From Alphaproteobacteria bacterium (GTDB taxonomy: Bacteria; Pseudomonadota; Alphaproteobacteria; DSM-16000; Inquilinaceae), in NCBI GenBank assembly GCA_009909005.1, contig JAAAOG010000089.1:1-35654 (forward strand): a stretch of DNA of 35,654 nucleotides. The letters are read 5' to 3'. Shown piece by piece: positions 7,395 through 29,440 of this stretch. Below the pieces are notes generated by a model that searched no databases, was not told where the DNA came from, and saw only the letters and a list, made by a program, of their open reading frames with translations. Made by a program: the position numbers and the translations under genes. Position 1 is the stretch's first letter. The number at the start of each line of letters is the position of its first letter.

Positions 7395-7991
7395 CTACAG
7401 GTCGAGATGGGCCTGGGGCACCCGGAAAACGCCCTTGATACAGTCGGGATTGCGCACACAAATCTGGATGTGGGTTTTCTCGAAGAAGCCGGCCCCCGGA
7501 TAAATCGGCGTCCCTTCAAGAAACACGCCGCGGACACTGTCGAACGCCGGCAAGCCGCCCGTCTTCCGGATCTCATGAAGGTGGTTGATTACGGCGCAGT
7601 CGAGCTTCCGCAATAGAAGATCCGATCCGCCCAAATTCTTGGGCAGTGGTCGACCGGATGACCTATTGTAGCTTTTGAAGTCTTCGTAAACAGCCTTGAT
7701 TTTCTTGAGCCCGTTCGAGGATATCAGGTCGAGGCAAAAGCCGAGATCAATGACGGCACCGACAACGTCGGCGTCTTCAAGTGTACCAGTCTTCTGCTGC
7801 TTTCTCTCCGTCACTTCCCGGGCAAACTCCAGGCCGCGAAGCGGATTGCTTTCCCAGAAATACACTCCCGAACCAAGCCAGTCATAATCATTTTCGCTCG
7901 GCAGAAAATTGCCGCCGGCAATCAGGGCCTCGGCAACACGGCGATCGCAGCCGTGGTAGCCAAGGACAAAGGCTGTCGACAGCTGGTGCAC
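7395..7991 (-). CDS. Probable ADP-ribosyltransferase-fold toxin
   Basis: A 198-residue protein with a GTG start. The N-terminus has YHG (His13) and then DWLGSGVYFWE (Tyr44, Glu47). The C-terminal part has GAGFFEKTHIQICVRN, whose Glu is a candidate catalytic residue. This order matches the His-Tyr-Glu layout of PARP-like ADP-ribosyltransferases, which transfer ADP-ribose from NAD+ to a protein or nucleic acid. There is no signal peptide, so it would act in the cytosol. The gene lies 11 bases after the stop of a 57-residue acidic-tailed gene on the same strand, an arrangement typical of toxin-antitoxin operons. Family assignment comes from motif reading only; the target is unknown. Confidence 0.8.
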   Translation of the reverse strand: MHQLSTAFVLGYHGCDRRVAEALIAGGNFLPSENDYDWLGSGVYFWESNPLRGLEFAREVTERKQQKTGTLEDADVVGAVIDLGFCLDLISSNGLKKIKAVYEDFKSYNRSSGRPLPKNLGGSDLLLRKLDCAVINHLHEIRKTGGLPAFDSVRGVFLEGTPIYPGAGFFEKTHIQICVRNPDCIKGVFRVPQAHLDL

Positions 7992-8002
7992 GGGAGCCCA
8001 CG

Positions 8003-8176
8003 CTAATCGCGGTCTTCGTCCTCCGGCTCGGGCCTGTAAGGCTCGGCGATTTCGTCGTTCTCGTCGAGAAAACCCTCCTCGCGTAGAAACGCCCGCGCCT
8101 TCTCCGGCGTCGCCGTGTGCTCGCGGTTGACGGCCCGCATCACGTCCAGAAACTCTTCGAGCTCTGCCTTGGTCAT
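8003..8176 (-). CDS. Small putative antitoxin
   Basis: A 57-residue protein, MTKAELEEFLDVMRAVNREHT then ATPEKARAFLREEGFL and an acidic C-terminus (EPEDEDRD). The central segment resembles small proteins in which a residue run of the type ARxFLxxxGI is followed by a YR-containing end. It has no DNA-binding motif I recognise. ATG at 8176 follows GGGAGG by about six bases; an ATG two codons upstream is too close to that site. It is the first gene of a two-gene unit with the ART-fold protein, so a neutralising partner role is inferred from position, size and acidity. Confidence 0.7.
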   Translation of the reverse strand: MTKAELEEFLDVMRAVNREHTATPEKARAFLREEGFLDENDEIAEPYRPEPEDEDRD

Positions 8177-8619
8177 CCGCATCCTCCCTCTGCCGCCGGA
8201 GTCAATGTCACCCGCCGGACCGCCCGGCGCAAGAGCGGCCTGAGCCCGGGCTGCCGGGACGCCAGGGCGCCCGGTACGCTCCTTTGCGTGCCGGTCCCGG
8301 CCCGCCGTCATCGATCTCCGTCCAACCGCGGCGTCACCGCGCCGCCCGGCGATGTCGAGCGCGGCAAAGCATCACCATCACTATCACCTGCAAAGGCCGG
8401 CCGGCACCCCGCCTTGAACCTGCCGAGCCCGCCGACATGACCCGCCAATGCCAAGCGGTCCACAAACCTACGACCCTTGCGCCCGCACCCTGCCCCCCAC
8501 CGATCTGACCATAGCCGGCCTCCTCTCCGCCCGCGACGATGGCCGGAAAGAGATCCCGGTATGTCTATTTTGGGGTACAATGCGCTCTCAACGAAGAGTC
8601 ATTTCGTCGGGAGAGCAGG
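8177..8619. other. 443-bp non-coding gap
   Basis: The gap lies between the minus-strand antitoxin start and the plus-strand Ntn hydrolase, so promoters for both should lie here. It contains one copy of a short dispersed repeat (8222-8251). Open frames are present on both strands but have no Shine-Dalgarno site or protein-like composition. I see no RNA gene. Confidence 0.45.
8222..8251. repeat. Short dispersed repeat, copy 1
   Basis: This stretch (starting GCCCGGCGCAAGAGCGGCCT) matches 9761-9790 at 26 of 30 positions. Both copies are intergenic and in the same orientation, one on each side of the proteasome-like gene. The origin is unknown. Confidence 0.55.
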
Positions 8620-9819: not shown

Positions 9820-10053
9820 TCAGCTGTCCGATACTTCGGCATAAAGCACCAGCATGAAGCCGGCGGGGGCAGGAAGCCCGCGGGCAATGCGCTTTTCCGC
9901 AATGGCGTCGGGCAGCCGCGCCGCAAGCTGCACCGACAAGTGCCCCGGCACAAGCAGCTCTGGCAGACCATCGCTCACCACTACCTTCAGCCCTGTCCGC
10001 ATGCCCTCGACCACCCACACGCCGATCATGTCTGTATCCATCTTTTCATGCAT
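9820..10053 (-). CDS. Small hypothetical protein
   Basis: A 77-residue frame starting MHEKMDTDMIGVWVVEG and continuing LKVVVSDGLPELLVPGHLSVQLAARLPDAIAEKRIARGL, ending in a hydrophobic stretch (PAGFMLVLYAEV). Composition looks like a real alpha/beta protein. No family is recognised, and there is no signal peptide. The ATG at 10041 is an alternative start; neither has a strong ribosome-binding site. It is divergent from the A+T-rich gene that begins at 10276. Confidence 0.5.
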   Translation of the reverse strand: MHEKMDTDMIGVWVVEGMRTGLKVVVSDGLPELLVPGHLSVQLAARLPDAIAEKRIARGLPAPAGFMLVLYAEVSDS

Positions 10054-10138
10054 TCGATCGCACCGCCATGGTTTACATAACGATGCCATCCTGATGCTTG
10101 GAACGCCACCCAAACCCATACCGAAATCCCTTTTCGAT

Positions 10139-10176
10139 TTGACGTGGCTAGCAGGTGATGGTACTAAATCTATAAT
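10139..10176 (+). promoter_or_regulatory. Possible promoter of the A+T-rich gene
   Basis: TTGACG at 10139-10144 and a perfect TATAAT at 10171-10176 lie in an A+T-rich stretch about 100 bases before the start codon. The 26-base spacing is too long for a classic sigma-70 pair. Either the TATAAT uses another -35, or TACTAA at 10162 is the -10 for TTGACG. Confidence 0.3.
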
Positions 10177-10275
10177 GATTTTAATAAAGATTGCGCAGTC
10201 TTATCAGAGAGAAGATGACGCGCTCTCTCCACTCAATAAGCCTGATCTTGCTACAAAGCAAACGGAGAAAACAGC

Positions 10276-12084
10276 ATGCACCAAGAAATTGATCTTTGTA
10301 AAATTCCGGAAGCCTTGAAAAGTGTAGTTCATAAACACTTTGATGAGAGCCGCTATTATTCTGCTTTGTATGAAGCAAGAAGAGCCGGAGCTTTTTCGTT
10401 GGCAATTTACTTGGTGTCTGCAGGGAAAGACGGAGATTCTGCGCGCGCAGAAGCAATAGAGATTATTGATGATCATTGGCCGCAGTTAAAGACACTATTC
10501 TTAAGAGAGTATGCAGCAGCGCCGTGTCGCTTTTGGCTTGACCGTATTATTCTCGAAAGTAAAATCATGTCCCGCGATTCGGATTTGGTGTCTTTTCTGA
10601 TCGACAACCTCAGATCAGCTTATGATATGGGAATATTGAAATATTGTACAGAATGGAACAACCCAAGCTTGAGAAAGCTGTTTTTTGTTTGTTTTGAGAC
10701 TGATATTCTCGAAAGATCCGATCCTGAAGGACGGAACGACGTCAGAGCAATGAGACAAAATCTTTATAATACCTACGAGGAAATATTTGAATGCGCCACT
10801 GATATGATATTTTTTAATATTATCAAACTGGATTTTGCCTTATTTCTGTCAAGCTGGTGGAAAGACGTCGTATCGATAGACAAATTGAGGGGTAATCTGA
10901 AAGTAGTGGGTTGCAGCGAGTTTCAAGAGCGATGTGCAATTACAAAGGCGTTGTCAGAACTTCCCGGTGACAGGTGGGACTCACGGGATTTTTGGGACAA
11001 TCTCGGCCCGGATGGGCAAGCGGCCTGGCGACAGGAGCTGCTTCAAAGCGTTCATGATAGCGAGCAACTGAGGCGCGGTCTGGTTGAAGCCTGCTGCTGG
11101 TGGGCGAACAAAGACGCGTTTGCCGAGCTTCAGCCGGTCCTCAAGAAATGTTTTAGGGACGCAAAAGATTTCAATTTTCTCGACAGCTTGGTATCACATC
11201 CTTCAAGGACTGTCCAGCTGAGATCGAGAGGGCTGCTGCAACTGATATCGTCCGGCAGTCTGGCGCCTTTAATTGCTAATGCTTCAAGTCCAATTCCGGA
11301 GACAGACACACCATCTCGAACTTGGATGGGAAATCCAAAAGTGGAGAGTTTTCTTTATAGGTGTGTTCGCTCTGTAGAAATTGAAACGGCTACAGATATA
11401 AAGAGCAATTTTTCTCAAGATGAGGAAGCATTGACAGCAAATTTCCTTGCCAGTCTTCAAAAGACTATAAGTTGTGGAATGGGGGAATTCCGCAACCAAA
11501 TGCGCTATTCGAGAGGGCAGTCGCCGAGTATTAGCATACAGGTGAGACAACCCTCAAAAGTTGAAGAAGGACGACCGGGCCCAAGCGGCTTGCCGCTTGG
11601 GGTTGATATTTTTTTTATCGTAAAAGTTATCGAAAGGCGCAGGCTTATTACGGAGCGGGCAACATATGTGCAGGTAAAGAAGATTCAGAAAGGAAAAAAA
11701 CAAAAACTTTCAAAATTTTTAGACATTGACCTGAAACAGTGTGACGATATCATATCGCATACAGAGTCAGCGTTTTATTTATTCATGGTTCCCCCTTGGG
11801 AACGAGCGGAACAGTGGGTCGTCCCTGCAAGGCTGGTCAGAAATCTGATGTCATTAAACGATTCCAAAAGTAGATTGCCCGATATTCTCGCACACGATAG
11901 CAGCCAAAATTTTTCTGACTTTTTTCTCAATGGGTTAATAGGGCTTTGGGTTGGGGATGAAAGTTCAGAGATATGTCAGAAAGCAAAGGGCGATGCTGAC
12001 TTGGGTTTAGCTGGCCGTTTTATTGTCGAAATCAGAGTATCGCGTGATCCCAATGGTGAAGTTCATATTAGACCAAAGATTTAA
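10276..12084 (+). CDS. A+T-rich orphan, possible PD-(D/E)XK-like C-terminus
   Basis: A 602-residue protein with far more A+T than any neighbour and codons such as ATA, AAA and TTT that are rare elsewhere in the window, so it was probably acquired. Residues 1-400 are mostly helical and unrecognised. Near residues 440-500 the order G-V-D-I-F-F, then Y-V-Q-V-K-K (about 464-470) and I-D-L-K-Q-C-D-D resembles a PD-(D/E)XK nuclease-like core (Asp, then Q-x-K) followed by the conserved QC helix of some defence-associated hypothetical proteins. ATG at 10276 follows GGAG (10264-10267). It stands alone with no methylase or helicase nearby. The nuclease reading is inference; coding status is secure. Confidence 0.9.
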   Translation: MHQEIDLCKIPEALKSVVHKHFDESRYYSALYEARRAGAFSLAIYLVSAGKDGDSARAEAIEIIDDHWPQLKTLFLREYAAAPCRFWLDRIILESKIMSRDSDLVSFLIDNLRSAYDMGILKYCTEWNNPSLRKLFFVCFETDILERSDPEGRNDVRAMRQNLYNTYEEIFECATDMIFFNIIKLDFALFLSSWWKDVVSIDKLRGNLKVVGCSEFQERCAITKALSELPGDRWDSRDFWDNLGPDGQAAWRQELLQSVHDSEQLRRGLVEACCWWANKDAFAELQPVLKKCFRDAKDFNFLDSLVSHPSRTVQLRSRGLLQLISSGSLAPLIANASSPIPETDTPSRTWMGNPKVESFLYRCVRSVEIETATDIKSNFSQDEEALTANFLASLQKTISCGMGEFRNQMRYSRGQSPSISIQVRQPSKVEEGRPGPSGLPLGVDIFFIVKVIERRRLITERATYVQVKKIQKGKKQKLSKFLDIDLKQCDDIISHTESAFYLFMVPPWERAEQWVVPARLVRNLMSLNDSKSRLPDILAHDSSQNFSDFFLNGLIGLWVGDESSEICQKAKGDADLGLAGRFIVEIRVSRDPNGEVHIRPKI

Positions 12085-22477: not shown

Positions 22478-22696
22478 ATGCGGCCGCGCGAGGTTCTCCT
22501 GGAATTCTACCCCGTCGGCCGGGTCGTCAAGGTCACTGCGGTCGATCCCGCAACCCTGACCGAGGTCTCGATCCAGGCGCCGGCGCATTTGTCGGAAGAC
22601 GCGATGAGCAACGCCGCCATCGCCAAGCTGACCTACGTCCTGAGAAAACGCGCCGGCAACGGCCCCGCGCCCGGCAACGGACCGCTCATCGCCTGA
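22478..22696 (+). CDS. Small conserved alphaproteobacterial protein (DUF6898-like)
   Basis: A 72-residue protein, MRPREVLLEFYPVGRVVKVT, then AVDPATLTEVSIQAPAHLS and AIAKLTYVLRKRAG. It resembles a small family found in many alphaproteobacteria with the pattern EFxxxGxxVKVxAxDPxTxTEVSI and a C-terminal KLxYVL helix. I believe this is DUF6898, but the number is from memory. AAGGGG lies before ATG 22478. It overlaps the convergent DUF29 gene by 11 bases. Function unknown. Confidence 0.8.
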   Translation: MRPREVLLEFYPVGRVVKVTAVDPATLTEVSIQAPAHLSEDAMSNAAIAKLTYVLRKRAGNGPAPGNGPLIA

Positions 22697-23201
22697 AGCC
22701 GTGCCGGCTGACCGGCCACCAGTCATGGTCAAGCAGCTGCGCGAGCGTATAGGGACACGCCGCCGGCAGCGCCGCCTCGTTCAGTCCATCGCGTTCCAGC
22801 CCGACGCCGGCCAGCCGGCGGCCATTGCGGAAGGCGGCCTCCAGCTCCGGACGGATCCTGCCGCGCAGGCTGGGGCTGCGCTCGAGCGTGTCCAGCACCG
22901 GCACCCGATGGTTGACCACCGACTCCCGCCAGCCCTGGCGCGGCCCCTCGGCCGGCGCGTATTCGAGCTTGAGGAGATGTTCGATGATCCGCATCAGGCC
23001 CGAGCGGGCCTTGTCCAGCTCGCTGCGGCCCAAGGAGTCGATCTCCTCGATCAGATTGTCCCAGTCGATGGCCGCCTCGCCGGAGATCGTGTCCCGGGCG
23101 GCCGCGCGGCGCAGGGCGGCCGCCTGCGCTTCCGCCCAGGCATGGAAATCGCGGTCGTAGAGGGCCGGCCGCTCCCCGGTCAGGATTGTCGCGTCGGTCA
23201 T
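22686..23201 (-). CDS. DUF29 family protein
   Basis: A 171-residue protein: LYDRDFHAWAEAQAAALRR at the N-terminus, IDWDNLIEEIDSLGRSE, LMRIIEHLLKLEYAP, GWRESVVNHR, and LEAAFRNGRRLA, ending CPYTLAQLLDHDWWP. These are the landmarks of DUF29, an all-helical family common in cyanobacteria and proteobacteria with no known activity. Met at 23201 fits the family; the frame is open to 23231. It ends by overlapping the convergent small gene. Confidence 0.9.
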   Translation of the reverse strand: MTDATILTGERPALYDRDFHAWAEAQAAALRRAAARDTISGEAAIDWDNLIEEIDSLGRSELDKARSGLMRIIEHLLKLEYAPAEGPRQGWRESVVNHRVPVLDTLERSPSLRGRIRPELEAAFRNGRRLAGVGLERDGLNEAALPAACPYTLAQLLDHDWWPVSRHGFRR

Positions 23202-23363
23202 CGCCGATCCGTTCCTCTGGTGACCGACCATTTAACTGCCGCCCGCGGGCCGCAGGCAACACCGGCAGTGCGACACCGCACCGCAGCATGGCGGATCTGG
23301 CTCAATGACGCGCGGTACGCGAACGCGACACACTCGCGTGCCTTGGGCAGAGGGAGGCAGGAG

Positions 23364-25839: not shown

Positions 25840-26868
25840 TTAGAACCAGCCGGCCTGGTCCATCAGGCGCACCGCCTGCGGGTTGTTCTCACCGAGGACG
25901 TTGGCGTTGAGCGTGTCCTCCTTGAAATCGCCGAATTGGGCGATCGGGCCGGAGACCTCGACCGACTCGACGACCGGATATTCGTTGTTGCCCTCGGAAA
26001 AGATCCGCTGCGCGTCGTCGCTGACCAGGAACTCCAGAAAGGCCACGGCGCCGTCGGGGTTGGGCGCCCCGGCCACCACACCGGCGCCGGAGATGTTGAC
26101 ATGGGTGCCGCGGCCATCCTGGTTCGGGAAGATGATGCCGACGGCCTCCCCGACCGCCTGGTCGGCCGGATCCTCGGAGCCCAGAAGGCGGCCGACATAA
26201 TAGCTGTTGACGATCGCCACCCGGCATTCGCCGAGCGCCGTCGCCCGGATCTGCGCGGTGTCATTGCCTTCCGGATCGCGAGCGAAGTTCGAAACGACAC
26301 CCTCTGCCCACTCCAGCGCCGCCTCTTCGCCATGCGCCGCGATGATCGACGCCATCAGCGACTGGCTGTAGATGTTGCTGGAGCTGCGGCTGCAGACCAT
26401 GCCCTCATAGGCCGGGTCGGCGAGGTCTTCATAGGTGTCCAGGCCTTCCGGCGCCCCGGCCTCACGGTTGTAGACGATGACCCGGGCGCGCTTCGACAAC
26501 CCGAACCAATGGCCGTCGGGATGGCGCAGATGCTCGGGCACCCGCTCCACCAACACGTCCGAGTCGACCGGCTGGAAGAGCCCGGCCTCGTCGGCCCGCC
26601 AGAGCCGCCCCGCATCGACGGTGATCAGCACGTCCGCGGCGCCGGCCTCGGCTTCGGCCTGCAGCCTTTCGATCAGCTCGTCGCTGCTGCCTTCGATCAG
26701 GTTGACGTCGATGCCGGTCTGCTCGGTGAACTGCTCGTAGAGCAGCAGGTCGGTGTTGTAGTGGCGGGCCGAATAGACATTGATTTCCTCGGCCGCGGCC
26801 TCGGCGGCAATGCCGCCGCCAAGGCACAGGGCGGCGACCGTGGCGGTGAGGGTCGAGCGGGTTCGCAT
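25840..26868 (-). CDS. Ferric-iron ABC transporter substrate-binding protein
   Basis: A 342-residue periplasmic binding protein of the FutA/FbpA-type. The signal peptide is MRTRSTLTATVAALCLGGGI with cleavage before EEINVYSARHYNTD. The family landmarks VYSARHY, LIEGSSDELIERLQAEA, ADVLITVDAGRLWRAD, SRSSSNIYSQSLMASII and VAIVNSYYVGRLL are present; the paired tyrosines (SYY) match iron ligands in this family. No permease or ATPase gene is beside it, so they must lie elsewhere. Met 26868 follows GGGAGA. A 19-bp Fur-type palindrome lies 70 bases upstream. Confidence 0.95.
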   Translation of the reverse strand: MRTRSTLTATVAALCLGGGIAAEAAAEEINVYSARHYNTDLLLYEQFTEQTGIDVNLIEGSSDELIERLQAEAEAGAADVLITVDAGRLWRADEAGLFQPVDSDVLVERVPEHLRHPDGHWFGLSKRARVIVYNREAGAPEGLDTYEDLADPAYEGMVCSRSSSNIYSQSLMASIIAAHGEEAALEWAEGVVSNFARDPEGNDTAQIRATALGECRVAIVNSYYVGRLLGSEDPADQAVGEAVGIIFPNQDGRGTHVNISGAGVVAGAPNPDGAVAFLEFLVSDDAQRIFSEGNNEYPVVESVEVSGPIAQFGDFKEDTLNANVLGENNPQAVRLMDQAGWF

Positions 26869-26937: not shown

Positions 26938-26956
26938 ATTGCGAATGCGTCGCAAT
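26938..26956 (-). promoter_or_regulatory. Predicted Fur box A
   Basis: ATTGCGAATGCGTCGCAAT is a 19-bp palindrome with arms ATTGCGA/TCGCAAT around ATGCG. It is 70 bases upstream of the ferric-iron binding protein start. It matches two other sites here at 17 of 19 positions and resembles alphaproteobacterial Fur targets. Confidence 0.85.
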
Positions 26957-27088: not shown

Positions 27089-27107
27089 GTTGCGACGCAT
27101 TCGCACT
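27089..27107 (+). promoter_or_regulatory. Predicted Fur box B
   Basis: GTTGCGACGCATTCGCACT is the reverse complement of box A with two changes. It lies 44 bases before the ATG of the first tandem paralog, a position that would block its promoter. Boxes A and B face away from each other in one 280-base divergent intergenic region. Confidence 0.8.
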
Positions 27108-27150
27108 ACCATGGCCGCCGAACAGACAGAACGGCGAAGGAGAGGAGCCC

Positions 27151-27711
27151 ATGGCCGACCCCGCCGCAGAGCCCATCCCAACCCCTCGCACCTTGCTGAG
27201 CTTCGCCGGACAGCTCGTCCTGTGGTCGGTGCGGCTTCGCCTTCTCGGCGACCGCCAGGGCATACCCACGGCCGACACGATCGAGACAGCCTATGGGCTT
27301 GTCGGCTGCCCGCACGCCCCGGCGACGCTTGCTTCGCTGGTCGCCGGGCTGAGCGGGGCGGCGCGACGCCCGATCGATATCCGCGCCCCCTGCTTCCGCA
27401 GCCTTTCCGCGGATGAAGACCGGCTGCTCGACCTGGTTCGCTGCTTCCAGCGCGATGACGCGGTGCGGCCTCGGTTCATCGTCTCCGCGCTGGTGCCGGC
27501 TGCCGGGCAGCCGCGGATCCTGGCGCTGACGGCCCGGCTGTCCGGACAGCTGACTGCCGCCGGCCTGTTTGTCGGCGGCGACATCCGTCCGCGCACCGGC
27601 CCCGTTCCGCAGGGCGCGCATCCGTCGCAACCGTGCGCCCACAGCCGGGCCCACTCCGTTCTCTCGCAGGATTCGGGGCTTTCCCATGCTACGGAACCGC
27701 ACAGACACTGA
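27151..27711 (+). CDS. Unknown protein, tandem paralog 1 of Fur-linked pair
   Basis: A 186-residue cytosolic protein. The core reads LLSFAGQLVLWSVRLRLLGD, then RRPIDIRAPCFRSLSADEDRLLDLV and LTARLSGQLTAAGLF. It aligns along its length with the next gene (LLLWAIRNWVHG, GRPIMIRCEICRWVSHDEERLLGTI, FAAWAFTAAGLRLP). AAGGAGAGGAG precedes ATG 27151. The C-terminal 30 residues (His/Ser/Gln-rich) do not align and overlap the start of paralog 2. Position behind Fur box B indicates expression under iron limitation. I do not recognise a function. Confidence 0.8.
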   Translation: MADPAAEPIPTPRTLLSFAGQLVLWSVRLRLLGDRQGIPTADTIETAYGLVGCPHAPATLASLVAGLSGAARRPIDIRAPCFRSLSADEDRLLDLVRCFQRDDAVRPRFIVSALVPAAGQPRILALTARLSGQLTAAGLFVGGDIRPRTGPVPQGAHPSQPCAHSRAHSVLSQDSGLSHATEPHRH

Positions 27712-28195
27712 ACTCCGCCAGCGCTGCGATCTCGACGGCGGAGAGGCCCTCCTGCTCTGGGCCATCCGCAATTGGGTGCACGGACCCCGGCGCGGCGACC
27801 CCACCCACTCCGTCCTGGCCCGCGCCTGGGCCTATCTGGACGCCCCGGCTCTCGTCGAGCCCTTCGACATGATGATGACCGCGCTTGAGATCACCGCCGG
27901 CCGGCCCATCATGATCCGCTGCGAAATCTGCCGTTGGGTCTCGCACGATGAGGAACGCCTGCTCGGCACCATCGCCCTGCATCAGGCCGGGCTGACGGAC
28001 GAAGCGGTCCAACTGCTCGGGCCGCTGGTCCGCCCGGGCGAAATGGGCCGGGTTACGCCTTCTGTCCGGTTCGCAGCCTGGGCGTTCACTGCGGCCGGAC
28101 TGCGCCTGCCGCGCGGCGGCGCCTTCCGCCAGCTGCTGGCTGCTATTGCGAACGACTCGCAGCACGATGAACGCGCCAGCGCCACGCTGCATTGA
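27686..28195 (+). CDS. Unknown protein, tandem paralog 2 of Fur-linked pair
   Basis: A 169-residue protein homologous to the gene before it. The shared pattern is LLxWxxR..G, then RPIxIR..CR.xSxDExRLL, then a C-terminal AAGL helix. It has three cysteines in the middle (RCEICRW). ATG 27686 lies inside the 3' end of paralog 1 (26-base overlap), indicating translational coupling. No signal peptide or membrane segment. It ends 43 bases from the convergent fur gene. Confidence 0.8.
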   Translation: MLRNRTDTELRQRCDLDGGEALLLWAIRNWVHGPRRGDPTHSVLARAWAYLDAPALVEPFDMMMTALEITAGRPIMIRCEICRWVSHDEERLLGTIALHQAGLTDEAVQLLGPLVRPGEMGRVTPSVRFAAWAFTAAGLRLPRGGAFRQLLAAIANDSQHDERASATLH

Positions 28196-28238: not shown

Positions 28239-28652
28239 TCAGGCGTGGTCGGCGAGCGGCTTTTTCGACCGGCCGAACAGGTCGAACCGATAGTCGACAA
28301 GGTCGTAGCCGAACTCTCCGGCCACGGCGCGCACCGCCCGATCCAGGCTGTCACTGGCAAATTCGACGATCTGCCCGGTCTCGACATCGACGAGGTGGTG
28401 ATGGTCCCAGCGGTTCAGTTCGTATCGGGTGCTCAGGGAGCCGAAATCGTGCTTGAGTGCCAGGTTGTGCCGGCAGAGAAACTGCAGAATCCGGTAGACG
28501 GTCGCAATACTGACCGATGGATCATGTTCCTGTGCCCGGCTCTGGATCGTCTCGATGGTCGGGTGGTCGTTCGCGTCGCCGAGAACCTGCAGAACCGCCC
28601 GCCGCTGGCGGGTCAGCCGCATGCCAAGCTCGGCGCATCTCTCAAAAATCAT
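28239..28652 (-). CDS. fur: Ferric uptake regulator
   Basis: A 137-residue Fur-family repressor. The winged-helix part is MRLTRQRRAVLQVLGDANDHPTIETI and VSIATVYRILQFLCRHNLA. The metal-binding dimer domain has RYELNRWDHHHLVDVETGQIVEF and ends GYDLVDYRFDLFGRSKK. The CxxC structural zinc sites of E. coli Fur are absent, as in most alphaproteobacterial Fur proteins. HHH could recall the heme motif of Irr, but the following LVDVETGQIVEF is Fur-like. It most likely acts on boxes A, B and D around it. It is transcribed away from box D, 155 bases upstream. Confidence 0.92.
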   Translation of the reverse strand: MIFERCAELGMRLTRQRRAVLQVLGDANDHPTIETIQSRAQEHDPSVSIATVYRILQFLCRHNLALKHDFGSLSTRYELNRWDHHHLVDVETGQIVEFASDSLDRAVRAVAGEFGYDLVDYRFDLFGRSKKPLADHA

Positions 28653-28806: not shown

Positions 28807-28825
28807 ATTGCAAATGCGTCGCAAG
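28807..28825 (+). promoter_or_regulatory. Predicted Fur box D
   Basis: ATTGCAAATGCGTCGCAAG agrees with box A at 17 of 19 positions. It lies 97 bases upstream of the Tp34/P19-type iron gene and between it and the divergent fur gene, so it could control both. Confidence 0.8.
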
Positions 28826-28921: not shown

Positions 28922-29440
28922 ATGACCGCAAGACTCTTCGCCTATCCCTTAGCCGCGCTGCTCCTCGCCCCGCCCGCCCTTGCGGCCGAAGTCCATGTCG
29001 GCGATGCCGTCGAGCAGGGCGGGCTTTCCGTCGGCGCGGCCTATCTGACGGCCATTTCCATGGAGCCGATGCCGCCCATGCCGATGGGCCCGGACACGAT
29101 CCATCTCGAGTGCGATGTGGCGGCGAGCGCCGACAACCGGCATGGCTTCGCGGAGGGGGATTTCGTCCCCTATCTGACCTGCAGCTATGTCATCGAGAAG
29201 ATCGGCAGCGACTGGCAGACAGCCGGGACCATGCTGCCGATGACCGCGCAGGACGGGCCGCACTACGCCAACAACGTGACCATGGACGGCCCGGGCGAAT
29301 ACCGGGTGACCTATTTCCTGGAACCGCCCTCCCGCAACGGCTTTTTCCGCCATAGCGATGACGAGACCGGCGTGCCGGAATGGTTCACGCCGTTCCACGT
29401 CAGCTGGACCTTCACCTATCCGGGCGAGCCGGCCGAGTAG
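28922..29440 (+). CDS. Periplasmic iron-transport protein, Tp34/P19 type
   Basis: A 172-residue precursor with signal peptide MTARLFAYPLAALLLAPPAL and cleavage after ALAA. The mature part has the family landmarks: a Met-rich site (MEPMPPMPMGPDTIHLECDV), TCSYVIEKIGSDW, LPMTAQDGPHYANNV, GEYRVTYFLEPPSRNGFFRHSDDETGVPEWF and PFHVSWTFTY. Tp34, P19 and FetP bind iron or copper and normally work with an Ftr1/EfeU-type permease. No permease follows here. The nearest ribosome site before ATG 28922 (CGGAG) is rather distant, and the frame is open to 28754. Confidence 0.93.
   Translation: MTARLFAYPLAALLLAPPALAAEVHVGDAVEQGGLSVGAAYLTAISMEPMPPMPMGPDTIHLECDVAASADNRHGFAEGDFVPYLTCSYVIEKIGSDWQTAGTMLPMTAQDGPHYANNVTMDGPGEYRVTYFLEPPSRNGFFRHSDDETGVPEWFTPFHVSWTFTYPGEPAE

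Follow-up and report, generated by a model that had tools for sequence, protein, structure and literature searches.

The window analyzed here, a 35,654-nucleotide stretch of DNA from an alphaproteobacterium of the family Inquilinaceae, carries two tandem genes, gene 1 and gene 2 (the 'A' and 'B' paralogues, respectively), which lie among genes for ferric-iron uptake and iron-dependent regulation (Table 1). The two genes, which are read in different frames, have 26 bases in common, and the encoded proteins share 30% identity over 136 columns (BLASTP E 7e-11), including an R-P-I-x-I-R motif at residues 73-78 and an S-x-D-E-x-R-L-L motif at residues 86-93 of both proteins. Divergent from the pair and upstream of it lies the gene for a solute-binding protein that matches FutA (2pt1; 413 bits), while the closest solved structure to the downstream Fur-family regulator is the Fur protein of PDB entry 4ray. 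The first-pass annotation of this DNA had described two overlapping homologous genes with these two motifs in common, located between an iron-binding protein gene and fur and preceded by a Fur box (box B) 44 bases upstream; the overlap and the BLASTP comparison, the identical residue numbers of the motifs, the matches of the flanking genes, and the exact distance to box B all agree with this description.

Table 1. Position of the gene pair, its flanking genes and the associated sequence elements in the window
Feature	Position	Strand	Sequence or motif	Remarks
FutA/FbpA-type ferric-iron ABC transporter binding protein	25840..26868	-		start inferred at 26868, before signal peptide
Iron (Fur) box A	26939..26955	+	TTGCGAATGCGTCGCAA	before iron-binding protein; best match in genome
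Iron (Fur) box B	27090..27106	-	GTGCGAATGCGTCGCAA	44 bases before gene 1 ATG at 27151
Ribosome-binding site of gene 1	27139..27147	+	GGAGAGGAG	direct reading; strong
Gene 1 ('A' paralogue)	27151..27711	+	RAPCFRSLSADE	186 aa
Gene 1 protein				helical domain, residues 18-136; low-confidence tail, residues 141-186
Gene 2 ('B' paralogue)	27686..28195	+	RCEICRWVSHDE (Cys79-x2-Cys82)	169 aa; C-terminal ...TLH
Fur-family regulator	28239..28652	-		137 aa; convergent with gene 2
Iron (Fur) box C	28808..28824	+	TTGCAAATGCGTCGCAA	between fur and P19-type gene
P19-type periplasmic iron-transport protein	28922..29440	+		Pfam Iron_transport PF10634, E 2e-51

Both genes are real, as their homologues align along their length and as dN was found to be well below dS (approximately 1/8 to 1/3 of its value, for the A and B copies alike) among the five genomes of genus g2. 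Gene 1 and gene 2 are the only two copies of the family in the genome. Elsewhere in the window, a gene for a DUF29 protein (PF01724, E 2.7e-35) is located on the minus strand at 22686-23231, a few genes from the pair; G+C content drops to 0.446 at 10001-12000, as compared to about 0.66 for the genome, which suggests recently acquired DNA, and two small genes without a Pfam match lie just before this stretch (7395-8311).

Iron operators in the window and upstream of homologues

The 17-base sequence of box A, TTGCGAATGCGTCGCAA, is matched in the window with one mismatch each by box B and box C; when up to 3 mismatches were allowed, these were the 3 matches in the window, as compared to 0.17 expected from dinucleotide shuffles. 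A search of the whole 4.2-Mb genome with the pattern TTGCGAATGNNTCGCAA identified five sites with up to 1 mismatch, three of which fall within 1.9 kb of the window; the other two precede a flavodoxin-DUF2023 operon and a gene for a ferric-type ABC permease, respectively. Nine further sites genome-wide showed 2 mismatches, including one before an imelysin gene and, among those that were read, one on contig C138 with no evident iron gene beside it. Because the best genome-wide matches precede iron-starvation genes, the motif can be regarded as an iron operator in this genome; its consensus and the company of genes in which it is found suggest that Fur would be the protein that binds it.

With regard to the flavodoxin-DUF2023 operon (contig C68, minus strand; flavodoxin at 2037-2516, DUF2023 at 1708-2055, and the box at 2585-2601), its location immediately downstream of an iron box that ranks among the best in the genome suggests that DUF2023 is probably another iron-starvation protein. 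A relationship between the gene pair and DUF2023, a flavodoxin partner with a similar S-x-x-E helix start, was considered and rejected, as profile comparison gave a probability of 0.7%.

Across the class, a generic Fur-type palindrome (TTGNNAATNATTNNCAA; 12 fixed bases, up to 2 mismatches, within 200 bp upstream) was found before 82 of 135 homologues. The controls showed it far less often, with 15 hits for 943 other genes in these loci and 8 for 675 dinucleotide shuffles. With one locus counted per genus, the palindrome was present in 49 of 74 genera, while 2000 random draws of other genes from the same loci yielded a mean of 1.0 and a maximum of 5 genera; about one third of the genera thus lack a good Fur palindrome before the homologue. 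As the pattern was shaped on the first set of loci, the loci fetched later represent a fair test, and here the palindrome was found for 18 of 35 homologues and for 0 of 161 controls; 5 of these 35 entries (L204, L207, L209, and the two from L249) had already been part of the first set, and their removal left 16 of 30. Start codons and gene calls were taken from a simple script and hence contribute noise to these counts, without evident bias towards homologues, and since only the first gene of an operon needs a box, the fraction per transcription unit is expected to be higher. The site of gene 1 itself shows 3 mismatches to the generic consensus and lies outside the count of sites with up to 2; it was judged by the motif of its own genome. 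Palindromes precede homologues across the class and in different gene neighborhoods, which indicates that the operator goes with the family and not with the neighborhood alone.

Some of the genera that lack a Fur palindrome may use Irr instead, although a pattern for the Irr box (ICE) mostly retrieved sites with a better fit to the Fur box. One genus with genomes of 7-8 Mb encodes a tandem pair without a Fur palindrome (L249:3246-4231, identical to L126, and L250:3272-4668), and a possible Irr-like site, ATTGGAATCGTTCAAGA, is located upstream of this pair in L249; in certain lineages, control of the family may have passed to a different iron regulator. Overall, gene 1 and gene 2 are very probably Fur-repressed iron-starvation genes, as judged from sequence, and the earlier proposal that they represent iron-limitation candidates is thus supported both by the genes that share the box within the genome and by the palindromes in 49 genera.

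The protein family, its predicted fold and its conserved residues

Neither protein matched a family in Pfam (even at E 10), NCBIfam, or PADLOC, and a sequence search of the PDB returned only chance-level matches. A scan of the genome collection using gene 2 alone found nothing, the divergence within the family being too great for a single query. A family profile identified homologues in 98 of 385 alphaproteobacterial genomes, representing 71 of 277 genera; within the window's own family, 13 of 17 genomes had homologues. More divergent copies are also found in Paraburkholderia (Betaproteobacteria; E 9e-5), and members occur in Azospirillum (as plasmid copies), Pseudoroseomonas, and Denitrobaculum; a plasmid search with one homologue (L125) as query found nothing. 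Public annotations seen for homologues read 'hypothetical protein'.

The closest named relative appears to be Pfam DUF6628 (PF20333), which, by profile evidence, is a remote branch of one superfamily with this family: a DUF6628 member (L181) was recovered by the family profile with E 1.6e-9 and aligned with the family in profile comparison with a probability of 96% (E 3.8e-9). L181 carries a Fur-like palindrome upstream (2 mismatches) and differs from the family in that it has neither the CxxC form of the cysteine motif nor a C-terminal His. In the opposite direction, the DUF6628 model matched only 1 of 83 homologues (E 2e-4), and the window proteins fall below its curated cut-off of 27 bits, with no match at all; DUF6628 exceeded this cut-off in 1 of 289 genomes of the class, as compared to a quarter for the broader family profile. 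Literature searches found no paper that mentions DUF6628, looser searches found nothing on the family, and papers on iron in Gluconacetobacter and Sphingobium provided no usable link to it. The term 'undescribed' used in the first-pass annotation hence holds for this branch, with DUF6628 as a remote relative; the family is almost undescribed and has unusual conserved features, while Fur-controlled hypothetical proteins in general are already known.

Structure prediction with AlphaFold2, performed on single chains with 83-85 homologues as input, yielded confident models with a pLDDT of 89.5 and a pTM of 0.82 for gene 2 and a pLDDT of 85.6 and a pTM of 0.73 for gene 1, the tail of the latter being of low confidence. 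Both models are all-helical and share the same six core helices (residues 18-136). A Foldseek search with the predicted fold gave no match better than E 1, and the best match in a second structural search, a designed helical protein (Z 4.9, rmsd 4.2 over 97 residues), was unconvincing; comparison with the ferritin-like four-helix protein Dps gave a Z of 2.3. The predicted fold thus appears to be without a convincing solved relative, which is not proof of a new fold.

Arg28 and Glu89 are invariant in 83 of 83 sequences, Gln100 is found in 75, and Trp25, Trp30, and Asp88 are nearly invariant. The cysteine motif is more variable, with Cys82 present in 55 and Cys79 in 39 of the 83 sequences; many members have the CxxC form, and many others, including gene 1 with its single Cys, have only one cysteine or none in the motif. 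A second variable feature is the C-terminus: His is the last residue of 78 of 133 homologues (and of 55 of 72 aligned sequences), usually as part of Leu/Ile/Val-His after a variable linker, and this His is replaceable by Asn or Gln (-LN*, -LQ*). CxxC and terminal His are both nearly invariant within a core group of 26 sequences and are not conserved family-wide. The two features also tend to occur together, as 70 of the 72 proteins that end in His have a Cys at aligned positions 79-82 and 2 do not (Fisher p 2.5e-6); among phylogenetically independent pairs, 5 were concordant, 0 were discordant, and 7 were uninformative, so that the coupling is no more than suggestive once phylogeny is taken into account. 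The [2Fe-2S] domain model Fer2_BFD (PF04324), which describes a domain with four cluster cysteines, matched neither protein, and the gene 2 motif contains the CxxC pair only.

Paired copies and genomic neighbors

Tandem A-B pairs in which A precedes B were found in the window's genus (g1) as well as in g2 and g145. In these pairs, A copies have a single Cys and lack the Leu/Ile/Val-His end, while B copies have CxxC and a Leu/Ile-His end or its Gln variant. Two genera (L033 and L100) encode two family domains fused in one chain, and three further loci (L098, L108, and L153) encode a canonical and a degenerate copy in divergent orientation. The occurrence of fused domains in some genomes and of tandem or divergent genes for the two partners in others favors a complex of two unlike subunits, and the A and B proteins, each with the shared predicted helical fold, probably form such a complex. 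Many genomes have one copy only, and A-type proteins are not all united in the tree, which would be compatible with more than one origin of A/B pairs. Denitrobaculum tricleocarpae R148 (G347, assigned through the identity of L138 and L204) encodes four family domains in three loci (L100:5836-6975, L138, and L147), one of which (L100) specifies the fused two-domain protein, and represents a good organism for genetics.

Among the 355 nearest neighbors of homologues in about 96 loci, Ferritin was the most frequent Pfam family (10 proteins), followed by common families; Redoxin (4), hemP (2), imelysin (2), and TonB receptors (2) were also represented. Bacterioferritin genes are located within 5.5 kb in about 10 of 95 loci, as compared to about 0.6 loci expected from the 2-3 ferritin-domain genes that genomes of this size were seen to contain (binomial p about 1e-9, with related loci not fully independent). 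The gene order homologue-bfd-bfr on one strand is found in L125 and its relatives L213, L214, L217, and L219 (three of which are titled Ferrovibrio) and recurs in L149, and the order bfd-bfr-homologue is found in L129. A lack of linkage between homologues and iron genes, named in the first-pass annotation as a refuting result, was not what the survey of neighborhoods showed: bacterioferritin, bfd, hemP, TonB receptors, imelysin, and ferric-iron binding proteins recur beside homologues. As most homologue loci have other neighbors and are not beside bacterioferritin, it is the operator more than the neighborhood that ties the family to iron. In genera g4 and g7, a gene for a Redoxin/AhpC-TSA protein is located directly downstream of the homologue on the same strand, at a distance of 26-92 bases. 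Loci in the window's family in which such a peroxiredoxin-like Redoxin follows the homologue include L029:6763-7843, L030:6305-7397, and L033:6942-8565.

Proposed role and comparison with known systems

The explanation that best accounts for these observations as a whole, to which we assign a probability of roughly 0.55, is that gene 1 and gene 2 form a Fur-repressed operon encoding an A/B complex that contributes to intracellular iron mobilization. According to this explanation, a fall in cellular Fe(II) would cause Fur to leave box B, and the two genes, which may be translationally coupled through their overlap, would be expressed together with the adjoining ferric-iron uptake genes. The A and B proteins would then associate, as the homologues with both domains in one chain suggest. 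More tentatively, the B subunit may carry the working site, consisting of Cys79-x2-Cys82 and the C-terminal Leu-His, with the A subunit as its degenerate partner; that B has a metal-binding or redox site is a proposal for which we see slightly less than even chances. The complex may act inside the cell on iron mobilization or delivery, and the step that seems most plausible for it would be the release of iron from bacterioferritin together with Bfd, although such a specific role with Bfd and bacterioferritin is possible rather than probable. In its most specific form, the proposal would define a new class of cytosolic iron-starvation factors in Alphaproteobacteria, in which the B subunit of an A/B complex, built on a helical fold with no known solved relative, holds iron or docks on bacterioferritin via Cys-x-x-Cys and Leu-His and, with Bfd, releases or hands on stored iron; we consider this full version rather unlikely.

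The main rival to iron mobilization is that the proteins act as an iron-sparing regulator or adaptor, which would bind to RNA or to other proteins when iron is scarce and turn off iron-rich functions in the manner of the small Bacillus proteins under Fur repression, the C-terminal Leu-His being a docking motif and not a metal ligand. The proteins are cytosolic and helical, with neither an enzyme-like signature nor a PDB relative, and the combination of a hypervariable linker with a conserved C-terminal dipeptide, whose His can be exchanged for Asn or Gln, is typical of a short docking motif; Caulobacter, moreover, strongly induces several Fur-repressed hypothetical proteins, with a sparing role proposed for one operon (PMC3751524). 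However, no RNA- or protein-binding family was matched in Pfam or NCBIfam, and the Bacillus Fbp proteins are small and basic (PMC3751524), as compared to 169-186 aa here, so that we regard a sparing function as unlikely, if still a serious competitor. A role as redox or peroxide-defense partner, in which the Cys motif would engage in thiol chemistry with a peroxiredoxin under iron limitation, draws on the presence of that motif and on the Redoxin gene downstream of the homologue in g4 and g7, but this neighbor is confined to a small number of related genera within the window's family, and the motif is reduced to a single Cys in gene 1 and to one or none in many homologues; we consider this role improbable. 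Finally, the 0.2-kb intergenic region that boxes A and B share with the divergent iron-binding protein gene would allow box B to serve that neighbor and the pair to be unrelated to iron, but box B ends only 44 bases before gene 1 and homologues elsewhere carry Fur palindromes of their own (49 of 74 genera, as compared to 1 expected), which makes this explanation extremely improbable and refutes chance placement between iron genes at the level of comparative genomics.

The family is found in about a quarter of the sampled alphaproteobacterial genomes, is almost unannotated, and is consistently located behind an iron operator; it seems to be a component so far missing from our picture of how Alphaproteobacteria respond to iron starvation. 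Linkage to bfd and bfr, taken together with the Cys motif and the C-terminal His, provides a concrete idea on how stored iron may be released or handed over, and the presence of members in culturable genera (Azospirillum, Pseudoroseomonas, and Denitrobaculum) makes the function open to testing.

Among known systems, Bfd resembles the family in being a small cytosolic protein encoded beside bfr, and bfd of Caulobacter (CC_3263) is Fur-repressed and induced 57-fold by iron limitation (PMC3751524); Bfd differs, however, in being a [2Fe-2S] protein of about 70 residues with its own fold, and the family is encoded in addition to bfd. The Bacillus proteins FbpA, FbpB, and FbpC are likewise small Fur-controlled cytosolic iron-starvation proteins (PMC3751524), but are set apart by description, being small and basic as opposed to the helical fold of 169-186 aa predicted here. 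The Caulobacter crescentus hypothetical proteins CC_2367 and CC_2904, which are Fur-repressed and induced 24- and 10-fold, respectively, by iron limitation (PMC3751524), are, in a comparison by description only, similar to the family in that they are alphaproteobacterial and are strongly induced both when iron is limiting and when fur is mutated.
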